NCBI GenBank assembly: GCA_949287505.1
Contig: CASEGX010000078.1
Span: 1 to 34,321, forward strand
Length of the DNA: 34,321 bases
Direction of reading: 5' to 3'
From: an uncultured Spirochaetales bacterium
GTDB lineage: Bacteria > Spirochaetota > Spirochaetia > Sphaerochaetales > Sphaerochaetaceae
A program made the position numbers and the translations under genes. Positions 1,648-7,904 of this stretch are shown here, piece by piece; the stretch's first letter is position 1; each line of letters starts with the position of its first letter. A model generated the notes under the pieces. It worked only from the letters and a program-made list of their open reading frames with translations, made no database searches and was not told the DNA's origin.

Positions 1648-4383
1648 ATGATAGACTTCAAGCAGTTGCTCAGCAATGAGAAAAATCTTGGGAAGAATCC
1701 GGCAGCCGCATACAAAGTGTCTGCATTTGAGAATATAGATAAAGAACTTATTGCCATCGAGGATGATGACAGGAAATATGACCTCAGGGATGAAGCAAAG
1801 AAAGAGCTTGAGAACAATGAGGATTCACTTATCCTGAGCTATATTGCCGGCAGGATAGGCATCCTTCTGCGTCCCCATGAGTACAACATGAGACTTAACA
1901 ACCTCCTCCTGTCCTTCTATGAGGCGGGAAACTGGGATGTGGTCAAGTATATCGGTGCCATCATCCTCTCCGCAGGCGAATCATCAAAGGCACTCCGTGT
2001 GCTCGGTGATGTTGCGGACCTGCAGGGAGATGAGGAGAAGAAATGGGATTACTATGAGCGTCTTGTCAAATCCGACAGCACCGATAAGGAGATAATCACC
2101 GTGGTCGCTGATCACTTCGAGGAGTCGGGTGACAAGCAGAAGGCCATGAATTATTACCAGAGAGCACTTCTCCGTCTCCAGAAGACCGATGATGAGGCCC
2201 ATATCAAGGAACTTTTCCAGAAACTCCTCGATAACGGCAGAAGCGGTTATCCTTTCTATTCATCATTCGTGGAGAAGGAAACGGAAAGAAATCCTCAGCT
2301 CGCTCTTGAGCTTTACAGGCTTCTTCTTGCCGCGCTTCTTAAGGAAAAGAATGCCTACCAGGAGACTTCATCCGAGTATAGAAGGAATATCGACAATACA
2401 ATTGAGATTGCAAGACGTATGCTGACAATCGCTCCGGATGACCAGGATACGAGAAAAACACTTGTAGAGGCCCTTTCTCTCAAGTACAAGAACTCACAGC
2501 GCCTTGATGAGTGTCTCAGGCATCACAACATACTCTCCTCTTCCAAGGATCCGGTTAAAGTCCTTGATGAATTCGAGAGGGATATCTCCTTCTCTGCCAA
2601 TACATATGTACTGCAGAAGGCAACACGCCGTGTAGGCCTGATCGTAGGGGTAGCAAACCGCACTGTGACAGTCCGCTACAGCGCAGCGGATACGCAGGAG
2701 ATAAAGCTTGAGAGTGCATTCGATGCTCTCACACCGCTTTCAAAGCAGCATATGAGGGCAATCAAGAAGGGTGTCCCTGCTGCCAAGATCAAAGCAAAGA
2801 TCCTCGGAGAAGGAGGCGTTGCATGGCTTGTGCGTACACTCCTCTTTTCAGCACAGGACAACAAGGAGACTCTGAAGGAGATGAAGGCTGATGTCGTTCC
2901 GTCAATCCTCACGGATAATGAATGGAAGAACATCACCGACAGCATCAAGACAGAGCTCCGGGAGAACAGCTACATAAGGATCATCCCGGGTGCAACTGAT
3001 ACATACCAGCTTACAGCTTATCCATCGACTCCGGAGGAAAAGCAGCTCTATGTATTCCGCAACGAGACAAGTTTCTACGGCAAGGTGAATGCGGCGCTCA
3101 CAGCTCTTTCCATTCCGGGAATCGAGAAATCCTCCGATGCATTCATGGAGATGGTTTCCTATTTCCAGGATCAGCTCAGCGCAGAAAAGAATCCGCTTTC
3201 AGAGCGCATTGCAGCGGTTCTTCTCCTTGACTATCTCTCGGAGAAGGAAGTTCCTGTCACATTCGATGTATCCTTTGAGAGTCTCTATCATGATCTCGAT
3301 GAGAGCGAGAAGAAGGATGTTTTCGCCGCTATTGACAATACAGTCCTCAAAAAGGAGTTCGTCGATCATCTCATCGATGCAGACAAGAGCATTGCTGCGG
3401 GAACGCTTGTGAACATCTTCCCGATCTACATCAGCTCATACATTCCCTCCAAGCTGAGAAGGCTTAACAAGGGTGCTGACTACTATGCGCTGATCAAGCG
3501 CTCCGTAGAGTCCTTCAGAGACTGTATCCCTGCCTTCATATTCTTCTCATGCGAGGCGAATCTCTCCGATCAGGATCTCTGGAAAGCTGATATCACGAAG
3601 GAACAGATATTCCGCACCAAGCTTCTTGCCCTTTCACATGTAACGAAGGCACAGAGCACTGCAGAGACCAAGAAGAACATAAAGGTACTCAGGAAGAATC
3701 TTGTTGAAGATGGCGCAATCGCCTCTTTCATCAAATCTGCATCCAAGGAAGAGATTGAGGAACTGAGACCGCTCATACTCTTCAATGAAGGACTTGAGAC
3801 AGAGGAGAAAGCCGCGCTTAAGAGTGCAATTCTCTCACGCTTCCCCGACTTCGATTTCAATGAGGCAAAAAAGGAGGCTCCGAAGCCATCCAGTCCGAAA
3901 GTCGTTTCCGGTTTCCTCTGCACTCAGAGAAGCTATGACAAGAAGAAGGAAGAGCTTAAGGATATCAACACAGTGCAGATGCCAGAGATCCTTAAGGAGA
4001 TCAACTTCGCCCGTGAGCTTGGAGACCTCAGGGAAAACAGCGAGTATCAGTACGCAAAGGAGCATAAGAGAGAGCTTGAGAGAAGAATCGGAGAGCTCAA
4101 CAATGATCTTGCTACTGTCCGCGTCATGACACCTCAGGATGTGCTTCCAGGCCTTATCGGATTCGGAACCAAGGTAAGGCTGCAGGACAGGATAAACGGC
4201 GGCGAGGTTGTCTATACATTCATGGGAAGATGGGAGTCCGAGCCTGAGAAAGGTATCATTGACTTCAATGCGCCTCTTGGACAGCATCTCGTGAATCACA
4301 AGACAGGTGATGATGTCAGGTTTGAGATCAATGAACGCCAGTATGACTTCACAGTCCTCTCAATCGAACCTGTAGAATTCTGA
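1648..4383 (+). CDS. greA: Long transcription elongation factor GreA with N-terminal helical/TPR-like extension
   Basis: A 911-residue protein. The last 156 residues (about 756-911) form a complete GreA. They contain the coiled-coil finger with the tip motif ELGDLRENSEYQYAKE, whose acidic residues D793 and E796 correspond to those that hold catalytic Mg2+ at the RNA polymerase active site and trigger cleavage of backtracked RNA. A C-terminal FKBP-like domain follows. Residues 1-300 are rich in paired amphipathic helices (for example SSKALRVLGDVADLQGDEEK and KQKAMNYYQRALLRLQKTDD) resembling TPR repeats. Residues 300-750 are mostly helical and unassigned. Ordinary GreA has about 158 residues. 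Long GreA proteins of about 900 residues are, as I recall, usual in Borrelia and Treponema, so this is probably a lineage-specific fusion rather than an error. The start is supported by AAGGAG at 1635-1640. It has its own promoter and terminator. Confidence 0.93.
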   Translation: MIDFKQLLSNEKNLGKNPAAAYKVSAFENIDKELIAIEDDDRKYDLRDEAKKELENNEDSLILSYIAGRIGILLRPHEYNMRLNNLLLSFYEAGNWDVVKYIGAIILSAGESSKALRVLGDVADLQGDEEKKWDYYERLVKSDSTDKEIITVVADHFEESGDKQKAMNYYQRALLRLQKTDDEAHIKELFQKLLDNGRSGYPFYSSFVEKETERNPQLALELYRLLLAALLKEKNAYQETSSEYRRNIDNTIEIARRMLTIAPDDQDTRKTLVEALSLKYKNSQRLDECLRHHNILSSSKDPVKVLDEFERDISFSANTYVLQKATRRVGLIVGVANRTVTVRYSAADTQEIKLESAFDALTPLSKQHMRAIKKGVPAAKIKAKILGEGGVAWLVRTLLFSAQDNKETLKEMKADVVPSILTDNEWKNITDSIKTELRENSYIRIIPGATDTYQLTAYPSTPEEKQLYVFRNETSFYGKVNAALTALSIPGIEKSSDAFMEMVSYFQDQLSAEKNPLSERIAAVLLLDYLSEKEVPVTFDVSFESLYHDLDESEKKDVFAAIDNTVLKKEFVDHLIDADKSIAAGTLVNIFPIYISSYIPSKLRRLNKGADYYALIKRSVESFRDCIPAFIFFSCEANLSDQDLWKADITKEQIFRTKLLALSHVTKAQSTAETKKNIKVLRKNLVEDGAIASFIKSASKEEIEELRPLILFNEGLETEEKAALKSAILSRFPDFDFNEAKKEAPKPSSPKVVSGFLCTQRSYDKKKEELKDINTVQMPEILKEINFARELGDLRENSEYQYAKEHKRELERRIGELNNDLATVRVMTPQDVLPGLIGFGTKVRLQDRINGGEVVYTFMGRWESEPEKGIIDFNAPLGQHLVNHKTGDDVRFEINERQYDFTVLSIEPVEF

Positions 4384-4502: not shown

Positions 4503-5144
4503 GTGAAGTATATCTGTTCTGTCTGTGGATATGTCTATGATGAAGAAGCAGAGGGCATCCCATTTGATTCCCTTCCGGATGATTGGTCATGCCCGATGTG
4601 TAAAGCCCCTAAGTCGCTTTTCGAGAAGGAAGAGATGAAAGACGAACCGTCTTCATCCCGGAAGGAGAGCGTCATCGATGATGATATGGAGAAGCTTCCT
4701 GCTGGAGTTCTTGCCGCGATATTCTCCAACCTCTCCAGAGGTGCCGAGAAACAATACAAGGAAAGAGAGAAAGAGCTTTTCTCCGTCATCGCTTCCTACT
4801 TCACGGCATCAGTGCCTCCTGTTGAGGATCCCTCTTCATCTTCAATCTCATCATTATTGGAAGAGGATCTGTCAGTCCTCTACCCTGAGATAAAGGAAAG
4901 AGCGGGAGCTGTATCAGACAGGGGGACACTGAGAGTCACTGTATGGGGCGAGAAAGTCTCTCGGATAGTGTCAGCAATCCTGGCGCGCTATGAAAAGGAA
5001 GGCAGCGCATTTCTTGAGGATACGGAGATCTGGGTGTGCAGTATCTGCGGCTTTGTATATATCGGGGACACGCCCCCATCAATCTGCCCTGTCTGCAAGG
5101 TTCCGGACTGGAAATTCGAGAGAATCCAGGGAGGTGCAGTATGA
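4503..5144 (+). CDS. Double-rubredoxin protein with helical middle domain
   Basis: A 213-residue predicted cytoplasmic electron carrier. Residues 1-45 form a classical rubredoxin ([22 protein letters not shown]; iron ligands C5, C8, C30, C33). Residues 175-208 form a second, shorter rubredoxin-like knuckle of the rubrerythrin C-terminal type ([24 protein letters not shown]179, C182, C195, C198). Between them lie about 110 helical, charged residues, including a motif around [17 protein letters not shown], which I cannot assign and which lacks the repeated ExxH di-iron motifs of rubrerythrin. The start is GTG 4503, preceded by GAGGTGAT (4492-4499), an almost perfect anti-SD match. The stop overlaps the next gene's ATG, so the two are coupled. 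Related domains occur, from memory, beside or within FMN-binding glutamate-synthase-like proteins of anaerobes. The partner enzyme is not visible here. Confidence 0.85.
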
Positions 5145-5761
5145 AGAAGATAGCAGTAAGAAACCTCAGACTCTGTACAAAGGACTGTCTCTGCCTCTAT
5201 GTCTGTCCGACAGGTGCGACAGATACGGAGAACAGCATCATCGATGCTGACAAATGCCTTGGATGCGGATCTTGCAGCGATGCCTGCCCTTCCGGAGCCA
5301 TAAGCATGGTTCCACTTGTGTATCCACCTCAGCAGGTGAAGAGTGAACGGGTCCGGAAAGCGGTTGAACGCCTTGCAGTGAATAAGGCAAAGGAAGAGAA
5401 AACTGCATTGCAGATTGCAGAGCAGACAGAGGATGGGAATCTTCAGAGACTCATGAAGGCGGTGGCAAGATCCTCAAGGCTCGTTGCAGAAGATCTCATG
5501 CGAGAAGGTGGATACATGCTTCCACAGAGCAGTGCCTCGCTCCGCCTCGTGAGGGAGCTGAGAGACAACCCTCCATCTCCGTCCTTTCCTGAAAAGGAAG
5601 CTACAGAAATACTTTCCCGTCTTAAAGCAAACGATGCCAGTACCGATGGAAAGGGAAAATACAGATGCTCTGTATGCTTTTCTGAGTTCGATCTCGATAG
5701 CGGTGAGGAGAAAACCTGTCCGATGTGCCATGCCTCTGATGACAAGCTAGAGAAAATCTGA
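5141..5761 (+). CDS. Ferredoxin-rubredoxin fusion protein (2[4Fe-4S] plus rubredoxin-like knuckle)
   Basis: A 206-residue protein starting at ATG 5141, with AGGGAGGT (5128-5135) five bases upstream and an ATGA overlap with the preceding gene. Residues 8-55 form a bacterial ferredoxin. The second cluster is standard (C39, C42, C45, C49-P). The first has ligands C12, C16, C18 and C22-P, so its second cysteine is shifted by one from the usual CxxCxxCxxxCP. Residues 60-165 are helical and charged, without a family I can name. Residues 173-204 form a rubredoxin-like knuckle ([14 protein letters not shown]176, C179, C193, C196). With the upstream gene it probably forms a dedicated redox relay. The reading frame extends upstream of 5141 inside the previous gene, but only the internal ATG has a good ribosome site. 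Confidence 0.85.
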
Positions 5762-5832: not shown

Positions 5833-6432
5833 TTAATCTGCAACAGCCGGAACCAAGCCAACCCCGACTGCTTTCACTGTTGTCTCTATATACCTGTCAT
5901 CAGTGAAATCGACAACATATGAAGGGAATACGACAAATGCAGCGCCCTTCGACCAGGCATCCTGTATCATGTCAGCTATGGCGTTTGCAAGCGATACATC
6001 ATAGGGATCGATTCCTTCCATGGAAATGGAATCCATAGCAGAGCCTTCATTCTCTACAAGCCTGCCATACATGTGAGTGTCGCCATCCTCCGGATTGTCC
6101 GCATTCACACGCCCTTTGCCTTCAACAGTTCCGACTATCTCATATATGCCGTTTCCGAGATCTTCCGGTGTAAGCACAAACAGGGAACGCAGCGGCATCA
6201 TGCTCTCCCCTCCCGGCATTGTATCACCGGAAGGTACAAACATCGGTGTCACATTCTCCTTTCCGGGAACAGGGGGCTCTGCTTTCTCTTTGAACTTGTA
6301 ATCAGGAACTTCCAGCTCCCTTTCTTCAGGAGTGTAGGATGAAACTGTGTCAGAGCTCTCAACAGTAGTGCAGGATGCCAGAAAAATGGCAGCAACGAGC
6401 AACAGGGAAAACAAATATACTGATTTTCTCAT
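5833..6432 (-). CDS. Hypothetical lipoprotein
   Basis: A 199-residue protein with a clear lipoprotein signal: positively charged MRKS, a hydrophobic stretch VYLFSLLLVAAIF, then the lipobox LASC with C21 as the predicted acylated residue. The start ATG 6432 has GGAG six bases upstream; ATG 6444 is an alternative but lacks a ribosome site. The mature part begins with an acidic linker, then a Pro/Met/Gly-rich stretch (about 60-80), then a C-terminal region (about 145-190) with SLANAIADMIQDAWSKGAAFVVFPSYVVDF, which resembles small alpha/beta lipoprotein domains. I do not recognise a named family. It lies 14 bases downstream of the outer-membrane protein gene and shares its transcript, so the two may work together in the outer membrane. 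Confidence 0.8.
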   Translation of the reverse strand: MRKSVYLFSLLLVAAIFLASCTTVESSDTVSSYTPEERELEVPDYKFKEKAEPPVPGKENVTPMFVPSGDTMPGGESMMPLRSLFVLTPEDLGNGIYEIVGTVEGKGRVNADNPEDGDTHMYGRLVENEGSAMDSISMEGIDPYDVSLANAIADMIQDAWSKGAAFVVFPSYVVDFTDDRYIETTVKAVGVGLVPAVAD

Positions 6433-6446
6433 ATCATTCTCCATTA

Positions 6447-7868
6447 TCAATAGAACCTGTATACAAGGCCAATCGAGAAATCGCAGGTAAGGAACCATGA
6501 ATCCTGCAGATCATAACCATATCCTTCGCTTATATAATACGGATAACCCCAGACATGTCCTGCATTGGCCTTGATGCCGAGGTTGAGGCCGAAATTATTG
6601 CCGAAGATGAAGTAATTCTTCAGCTCTGCACCTGCACCGAATCCGAACATTCCTCTTGCACCCCAATACAGTGAAGCCTCGGTATTGAGAAGCAGGCGAT
6701 ACATCTCGCCATCGACGAGCTTGAATGAAGCGCCAGCATCAACCGTGCCGAATGTCGTTGTGTGTTCATCTGAATCGCCGAAATAGACGGAGACACCAGC
6801 AGAAAGTCCAACCCGACCGACATCAGACTGACTCAGAAGGTAGTTCTGACGTGAAATCTCAGCCTCTATCTCTTGAATGCGCTTATCAATATCGCTGGTG
6901 TCGCCATTTCTTAAGACAACGAGGATTCCATCGTAAAGATAATCCATCACTTCTCTCTTCGCAGCAGAGTCCTCAATGGGCTTGAATGTTTCCTCGTAAA
7001 GATTCACCTGGCGCTGTATTTCAGCCTTGATACGCTGAATGTCATAACAGGCCTTGTCATAAACCTCGCCTATTCTGACTTCATACTCATTATCCACCGC
7101 CTGATACTGTGCCTGAAGTGCTGCAAGCCTGCTTTCCTCATAATCTGCAGCGACAGCAAGTCTTGCGCTGATATCAAGATAGACATCACTGTCCACAAGA
7201 CTGTCATTCTCATCCACATATGTGAAGTATCTTGTCTCCCTGTAGCCTTCCGGATTTATGATGGCCTCGCGCTCATCAGCTTTCTCACGGACAACAGCCT
7301 TCTCTTCCTGTATGATGGCCTTCCTTGCATCTCCGCTCTGATCCGCCTGAAGGCGATGGATTTCAGCATCCGCTTCTTTCCATACGCTCTCAGCCTCTCT
7401 GGAAAGCTCCTCGATTTTTGCAAGATACTCAGCCCGCCTTGCCGCAATTGCCTCGGGCGTTGCCTCTGTCTTTATCTCCAGAGCTCTATCTGCAAGCGGC
7501 TCAATCCACAAAAAGAAGGTCTCCATGCTTGCAGTTGCCTTCTCCTCATCTGTGAAAAGATCCTTATAGCTGCCATCAGAGAGCATCTCGAATGTGATTG
7601 TCCTTGCTTTGGCTGCAAGTCCGGATATTGCCTCCTTTTCAGCTTTCAGCTCCTCAAGCTCAGGAGTGGTCTTTATAAGCTCCTTTTCCCCATCGTCATT
7701 GTCAAAGAAAACAGATGTCGAGAGGTCTAAACCTGTCCACCACCTGCTTTCGAACATAGGACCGAACGAAAGCTCTAGAGAAGGAAAATACTCATGAGCA
7801 GAGATTGGCAATACAGCCATCAGGGCAAACAATAATGAAAGAATAATCCTGTGATTTTTCCCACGCAT
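6447..7868 (-). CDS. Predicted outer-membrane protein: periplasmic coiled coil plus C-terminal beta-barrel
   Basis: A 473-residue exported protein. The Sec signal peptide is MRGKNHRIILSLLFALMAVLPISA, with predicted cleavage before HEYFP. A short aromatic-rich segment (SLELSFGPMFESRWWTG) follows. Residues about 65-330 are highly charged and helical, with long Glu/Lys/Ala/Arg-rich stretches typical of coiled coil. From about residue 340 the sequence alternates aromatic and small residues in strand-like segments (VGLSAGVSVYFGD, MYRLLLNTEASLYWG, GFGAGAELKNYFIFG, GLNLGIKANAGHVWG) and ends in FSIGLVYRFY, a C-terminal aromatic signal like that recognised by BamA. I recognise no named family. The ATG at 7868 has no Shine-Dalgarno sequence, but a strong promoter lies directly upstream. 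The lipoprotein gene follows. Confidence 0.82.
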   Translation of the reverse strand: MRGKNHRIILSLLFALMAVLPISAHEYFPSLELSFGPMFESRWWTGLDLSTSVFFDNDDGEKELIKTTPELEELKAEKEAISGLAAKARTITFEMLSDGSYKDLFTDEEKATASMETFFLWIEPLADRALEIKTEATPEAIAARRAEYLAKIEELSREAESVWKEADAEIHRLQADQSGDARKAIIQEEKAVVREKADEREAIINPEGYRETRYFTYVDENDSLVDSDVYLDISARLAVAADYEESRLAALQAQYQAVDNEYEVRIGEVYDKACYDIQRIKAEIQRQVNLYEETFKPIEDSAAKREVMDYLYDGILVVLRNGDTSDIDKRIQEIEAEISRQNYLLSQSDVGRVGLSAGVSVYFGDSDEHTTTFGTVDAGASFKLVDGEMYRLLLNTEASLYWGARGMFGFGAGAELKNYFIFGNNFGLNLGIKANAGHVWGYPYYISEGYGYDLQDSWFLTCDFSIGLVYRFY

Positions 7869-7874
7869 GGGATG

Positions 7875-7904
7875 ATTATATGCTTTTAGCTCTGCAAGTG
7901 TCAG
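7875..7904 (-). promoter_or_regulatory. Strong sigma70-type promoter abutting the start codon of the outer-membrane protein gene
   Basis: On the minus strand CTGACA (7904-7899) and a perfect TATAAT (7880-7875) are 18 bases apart. Transcription is expected at about 7868, which is the A of the start codon, and no ribosome-binding sequence lies between. This points to a leaderless transcript for the outer-membrane protein and lipoprotein genes. Confidence 0.65.

Follow-up and report, generated by a model that had tools for sequence, protein, structure and literature searches.

A conserved spirochaete gene pair predicted to encode an OmpA-like outer membrane barrel and an RcsF/YbjQ-fold lipoprotein

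Results

Two adjoining genes on the minus strand

The window, i.e., the whole stretch of DNA that was analysed (34,321 nucleotides), is the complete contig C78 of a 2.29-Mb metagenome assembly (G000; approximately 92% complete and 6.9% contaminated) from an uncultured gut spirochaete. Two adjoining genes on its minus strand encode a putative outer membrane barrel protein and a lipoprotein, the real start of which is MRKSVY... at position 6432 (Table 1). The initial annotation had described a 473-residue protein with a signal peptide and a final aromatic residue, followed 14 bases downstream by a lipoprotein, and all of these features were present in the sequence; the second product has an LASC lipobox. 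In the direction of transcription, the minus strand carries the genes for PNPase, two LptF/LptG permeases, Tgt, a protein with an aminoacyl-tRNA editing domain, the barrel protein and the lipoprotein.

Table 1. Positions of the two genes and of their observed or predicted features in the window
Feature	Position	Strand	Basis
Predicted outer membrane barrel protein with inserted helical hairpin, 473 aa	6447..7868	-	ORF, AlphaFold2, VIA-align
Barrel protein signal peptide, residues 1-24	7797..7868	-	Sequence MRGKNHRIILSLLFALMAVLPISA; model helix 4-19
Predicted barrel strands 1 and 2, residues 25-56	7701..7796	-	Model strand 45-54, beta periodicity, VIA alignment from residue 22
Hairpin first half, residues 69-204, predicted periplasmic	7257..7664	-	Model helices
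Hairpin tip, residues 205-224, YRETRYFTYVD	7197..7256	-	R213-Y214 at 7227-7232
Hairpin second half, residues 227-347	6828..7190	-	Model helices
Predicted barrel strands 3-8, residues 352-473, C-terminal aromatic residue	6450..6815	-	Six model strands, 14-19 residues each
Lipoprotein with predicted RcsF/YbjQ-fold domain, 199 aa	5833..6432	-	ORF, model, Foldseek, VIA
Lipoprotein signal peptide and lipidated Cys21 (LASC)	6370..6432	-	Cys21 invariant in 19 homologues
Disordered linker, residues 22-75 (54 residues, 8 Pro)	6208..6369	-	Low pLDDT
Predicted RcsF/YbjQ-fold domain, residues 76-194	5851..6207	-	Model, Foldseek, VIA
Promoter-like site, CTGACA-18-TATAAT	7875..7904	-	11 of 12 consensus positions; ends 6 bases before barrel ATG

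On the plus strand beside the pair, positions 4503-5761 encode a protein with rubredoxin-like domains at both ends, which overlaps a second ORF that encodes a ferredoxin (4Fe-4S) domain and, at its C-terminus, a rubredoxin-like CxxC region. A 911-residue protein is encoded on the same strand at 1648-4383; its GreA/GreB transcription factor portion is confined to the last 150 residues, and the long N-terminal part gave no Pfam match at E 1e-5. Profile searches of G000 found a SEDS protein and found neither a PBP transpeptidase (PF00905) nor flagellin (PF00669); because the assembly is 92% complete, these two absences are provisional. IgaA (PF07095) was likewise not found in this approximately 92% complete assembly.

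The helical region is predicted to be an insert within one eight-stranded barrel

Neither product of the pair had a Pfam or NCBIfam match above cut-off or a convincing match among PDB sequences, and the initial contig scan with the barrel protein, as well as a plasmid search, returned no relatives. The predicted structure of the barrel protein is a single-chain AlphaFold2 model built on a shallow alignment of 14 sequences (m2fd76197c40f; mean pLDDT 77, pTM 0.41); structure predictions drew solely on proteins of the window and of related loci. In this model, a strand (45-54) and two helical segments (69-204 and 227-347) are followed by six C-terminal strands (352-365, 370-386, 390-403, 407-422, 426-444 and 453-470); strand 1 has a pLDDT under 50. 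The beta-type alternation of hydrophobic residues was reached by none of 500 shuffles for residues 352-473 and by 4 of 500 for residues 25-56.

Foldseek with the full model, which is long and mixed, gave no match at E 0.001 or better. The best VIA-align matches were OmpA (9a2m; Z 13.1 over 140 residues, rmsd 3.1 Å) and NspA (1p4t; Z 12.9), followed by OmpW (12.1), a second OmpA entry (1bxw; 12.0) and PagL (11.0), with the OmpW/OprG matches at about 11-12. These alignments span residues 22-473 and unite both flanks of the insert in one eight-stranded barrel. Thus, the 473-residue protein is predicted to form a single barrel of the OmpA/NspA type. Because strands 1 and 2 come before the helices, the helical region is an insert within that barrel and not a preceding domain, as the initial annotation had it. 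The C-terminal region proposed there as a barrel is predicted to belong to an outer membrane barrel rather than to a soluble fold, with OmpA, NspA, OmpW and PagL as the best solved matches; it holds six strands instead of eight, however, and the other two lie ahead of the helices. The protein terminates at its last strand without a C-terminal OmpA peptidoglycan-binding domain, and no OmpA-C, SLH or other wall-binding domain was found by Pfam in the window barrel or its relatives.

Outer membrane barrels end with their C-terminus in the periplasm. Since six strands follow the insert, a periplasmic C-terminus places the insert in the periplasm as well, and strand 1 is not needed for this argument. 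A hairpin on the cell surface was rejected on the same even strand number. We therefore regard the insert as a helical hairpin of about 280 residues that is predicted to sit in the first periplasmic turn of the barrel. The charged coiled-coil region of the initial annotation was retained as two helical segments on the periplasmic side, but its helical periodicity was weak: modest for residues 69-204 (reached by 20 of 500 shuffles) and not significant for residues 227-347 (106 of 500). The region is termed a helical hairpin because the signal of a simple coiled-coil heptad is weak. Supposing straight helices, the hairpin would be at most about 180-200 Å long; model confidence is low at the tip (residues 205-218).

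The lipoprotein carries a predicted RcsF/YbjQ-fold domain

In the single-chain predicted model of the lipoprotein (ma8c521696d7f), residues 76-194 were of good confidence, and residues 25-46 and 57-74 had a pLDDT under 50. Foldseek matched the YbjQ/DUF74 proteins 1vr4 (E 1.3e-4) and 1y2i (E 4.4e-4) and E. coli RcsF (2y1b, E 6.1e-4; RcsF in the BamA complex, E 4.0e-3). VIA ranked 1vr4 (Z 8.9), 3qkb (8.1), RcsF (7.5) and chain B of the IgaA entry 9biy (7.4) above the remaining matches, which begin at Z 5.0. These comparisons predict a YbjQ/RcsF fold for residues 76-194, a point absent from the initial annotation. The fold alone does not single out RcsF, because the YbjQ proteins match at least as well.

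The RcsF profile (PF16358) gave no match in the window family at E 5, and one treponeme homologue reached only E 0.11. YbjQ_1 (PF01906) was not matched by the window lipoprotein; treponeme lipoproteins homologous to the window family (hhalign E 2e-19) pass its Pfam cut-off (25.3 vs 23 bits). Cys21 is the sole cysteine of the window lipoprotein, and the two RcsF-type disulphides are absent from the family, in which homologues have at most one cysteine after the lipidated region. With no profile match, no disulphide cysteines and no IgaA, the window lipoprotein is not RcsF by membership. It shares its predicted fold with the YbjQ/DUF74 proteins 1vr4, 3qkb and 1y2i, and differs from that family in being a lipoprotein with a linker and in lacking a match to the Pfam profile.

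The gene order is conserved

Among 139 genomes of the family, the unit was detected in 17, and in each of them the barrel gene comes before the lipoprotein gene. Because this order recurs in 17 family genomes, and in a diverged form in four treponeme-like genomes, the two genes are not a chance pair of ORFs. The initial annotation had proposed a two-gene unit with the lipoprotein as the partner of the barrel; the conserved gene order supports both points, and the non-conservation that it had named as refuting evidence did not occur. Lipoprotein homologues were confined to the genus of the window and one neighbouring genus, with weak matches alone elsewhere in the family; relatives of the lipoprotein locus carry the database names uncultured Spirochaetales or Spirochaetaceae, Candidatus Ornithospirochaeta and Candidatus Aphodenecus. 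In both genera, every full-length lipoprotein homologue is preceded on the same strand by a barrel gene with a signal peptide. Within the genus, the profiles of the barrel and of the full-length lipoprotein matched the same 11 of 48 genomes, with two extra matches: a weak N-terminal barrel match in G058 and a lipoprotein fragment in G052.

This fragment (L044, G052:C1:28000-41000, about 6454-6714) has no recognisable barrel gene adjoining it and is possibly a decaying or misassembled unit. G002 holds, besides its complete unit, a second one cut by a contig end. In G055 and G036, two tandem lipoprotein genes stand behind one short barrel (L037 745-1777 and L040 977-2011); as their second copies cluster in the tree, the gene was duplicated before these two genomes diverged.

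The genes flanking the unit, whose names were read from the sequences and only partly checked against family profiles, vary by group (clpB and a nucleotidyltransferase-like gene; typA/bipA; ileS; purA and a galactosidase-like gene; dnaX; tgt), indicating that the pair is kept while its surroundings change. Across the unit loci inspected, no inner membrane partner was encoded consistently beside the pair.

A further family of the class includes four treponeme-like genomes in which a homologous lipoprotein gene lies at most a few tens of bases after a gene for a DUF2715 (PF10895) barrel. Like the window barrel, these are small barrels beside a homologous lipoprotein, but the window barrel does not match the DUF2715 profile and has no sequence similarity to it. 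Common descent of the two kinds of barrel was not detectable (hhalign probability 1.9). At 27 of the 30 DUF2715 loci inspected, no such lipoprotein was found next door. Distant YbjQ-fold lipoproteins in G116, G374, G400 and G406 have no adjoining barrel, which indicates that the pairing is not a property of the fold.

The treponeme barrels bear on the possibility that the window barrel serves small-molecule uptake in the manner of OmpW/OprG. In that case, the lipoprotein would be an accessory or assembly factor, and the hairpin a decoration peculiar to the lineage. Both OmpW and OprG were among the structural matches of the window barrel (Z about 11-12), the treponeme partner barrels belong to DUF2715, and OmpW/OprG served as the basis when the four eight-stranded barrels of T. 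pallidum were modelled as possible channels (PMC8407342). However, OmpA and NspA rank top, although OmpW (Z 12.1) is within about 1 Z unit, and an uptake role leaves both the conserved periplasmic motif described below and the RcsF-fold lipoprotein unexplained. We consider it unlikely.

An Arg-Tyr motif lies in the predicted first periplasmic turn of all 17 barrels

Only four of the 17 genomes with the unit (G000, G035, G070 and G075) have the helical insert, hereafter the arm; in the other 13, the turn is about 66-112 residues long with no helical insert. An Arg-Tyr pair was present in the first periplasmic turn of all 17 barrels, in the short loop of 13 and at the hairpin tip of four. In 1000 shuffles, which do not remove relatedness, the chance expectation was a mean of 7.1 and a maximum of 13 of 17. 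The usual motif of the short barrels is YxPxRY (e.g., YVPRRY; degenerate in G065), and that of the armed proteins is xTRYxT[YW]VD. Among the four armed proteins, 7 of 20 positions are invariant in the tip vs 7 of 271 in the two hairpin halves (Fisher p 6e-6), so that by sequence comparison the tip is the best-conserved part of the hairpin. Such a pattern is more in keeping with a partner that binds at the tip than with a passive rod.

In three of the four armed loci (the window, L028 and L030), the barrel ATG is preceded at about 6-7 bases by a -10-like hexamer, which in the window is accompanied by a near-consensus -35. Upstream of the barrel gene in those three loci, no Shine-Dalgarno sequence was found; at several loci with short barrels, a GGAGG-type site is present instead. 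It is possible that the armed operon is leaderless.

The distribution of the arm is relevant to the spacer or tether role that the initial annotation had proposed, in which the hairpin alone would set the distance from the outer membrane to peptidoglycan or the inner membrane and the lipoprotein would merely stabilise the hairpin. The hairpin is predicted to be periplasmic and long enough for much of a periplasm, and a cell in whose genome no PBP transpeptidase was found could benefit from anchoring that does not depend on the wall. A coiled-coil stalk on the SlpA barrel reportedly tethers the outer membrane. The hairpin resembles SlpA and OmpM in joining a barrel to a periplasmic coiled coil; in those trimeric proteins the coiled coil precedes the barrel and an SLH domain is present, whereas the window hairpin interrupts a single eight-stranded barrel between strands 2 and 3 and is accompanied by no SLH domain. 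In OmpM, too, the coiled-coil stalk tethers the outer membrane (PMC10628300). Against such a role, 13 of the 17 genomes keep the unit but lack the hairpin, searches detected no wall-binding domain (SLH, OmpA-C or other), and conservation of the hairpin peaks at its tip. The coiled coil is thus not the essence of the unit. A tether to peptidoglycan in particular is not supported: the pair has no peptidoglycan-binding domain, and no PBP transpeptidase was detected in the genome, although the latter encodes a SEDS protein and is assembled to only about 92% completeness. Because most genomes with the unit lack the arm and no wall-binding domain was found, we regard a tether as weakened and, overall, improbable; the arm may still reach toward the inner membrane.

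The longest lipoprotein linkers occur in the armed clade

In the armed genomes, 58, 38, 37 and 20 residues separate the lipidated Cys from a conserved P.R motif; this distance was 23 in G065 and 11-19 in the remaining armless genomes. Linker length correlated with arm length, taken as the distance from Arg-Tyr to strand 3 (Spearman 0.79, p 1.6e-4). In the lipoprotein-domain tree, the four armed genomes form one clade, so the association is close to a single event; independent contrasts gave r 0.42-0.58 (p 0.015-0.095). Inside the armed clade there was no trend (arms 141, 141, 95 and 142; linkers 58, 38, 37 and 20). Linkers are therefore longest where the arm exists, and a scaling of linker with arm is suggestive; after the contrasts on the tree, we no longer count it as independent evidence. 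In E. coli, a lengthened RcsF linker restores signalling across a widened periplasm (PMC5736177).

Discussion

We propose, giving it about an even chance, that the two genes encode a dedicated outer membrane complex, with the RcsF-fold domain docked on the periplasmic turn of the barrel. The eight-stranded OmpA-like barrel would present the conserved Arg-Tyr motif in its first periplasmic turn, and the RcsF/YbjQ-fold domain of the lipoprotein, on its flexible linker, would dock on this turn as RcsF does on OmpA. In the lineage of the window, the turn would be extended into the helical hairpin, carrying the docking motif deep into the periplasm, and the long linker would let the RcsF-fold domain follow the inward-shifted motif. 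The complex might then act, in a structural or a signalling role, as an adaptor that extends inward from the outer membrane over an adjustable distance.

The RcsF/YbjQ fold of the lipoprotein points to a complex like that of OmpA and RcsF, and this is the most economical reading since E. coli RcsF binds OmpA at its periplasmic part rather than at the barrel (PMC7553776). Both systems combine an eight-stranded barrel with an RcsF-fold outer membrane lipoprotein on a flexible linker. Unlike in E. coli, the spirochaete partners are encoded by adjacent genes, and what would face the periplasm is a turn or hairpin within the barrel sequence instead of an OmpA domain at the C-terminus. The window lipoprotein also differs from E. 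coli RcsF in having no disulphide cysteines, in a genome in which IgaA was not found.

Threading through the barrel lumen has been proposed for RcsF with OmpC/OmpF. For the present lipoprotein it was rejected as a first choice, given that the eight-stranded OmpA barrel lacks an open channel and that it is the periplasmic portion of OmpA to which RcsF was shown to bind (PMC7553776).

An RcsF fold with a barrel partner and a long flexible linker could also form an envelope-stress sensor, in which the barrel holds the lipoprotein and releases it to an inner membrane partner upon damage, i.e., an Rcs-like system without IgaA. The presence of lptF/lptG upstream on the same strand in G000 is consistent with this. 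We think it very unlikely, however: besides the missing IgaA in G000, neither an inner membrane partner encoded consistently beside the pair nor a regulatory output is known.

Returning to the proposed docking complex, a more specific form of it appears possible, if rather doubtful. Spirochaetes would have a complex of a barrel and an RcsF-fold lipoprotein that is independent of Rcs, in which evolution has adjusted the distance of the Arg-Tyr motif by means of the arm, with the linker matched to it, in cells apparently lacking PBP transpeptidases.

To our knowledge, RcsF-like lipoproteins on outer membrane barrels are known mainly from enterobacteria. The gene-linked pair in spirochaetes, if the proposal is true, would suggest that small barrels are paired with this fold more widely than the Rcs pathway occurs. 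In the arm, its tip motif and the long linker, nature would have provided a counterpart to the laboratory experiments that tuned the reach of RcsF through its linker length. The proposal would also provide a testable function for lipoproteins and barrels that have no useful annotation.
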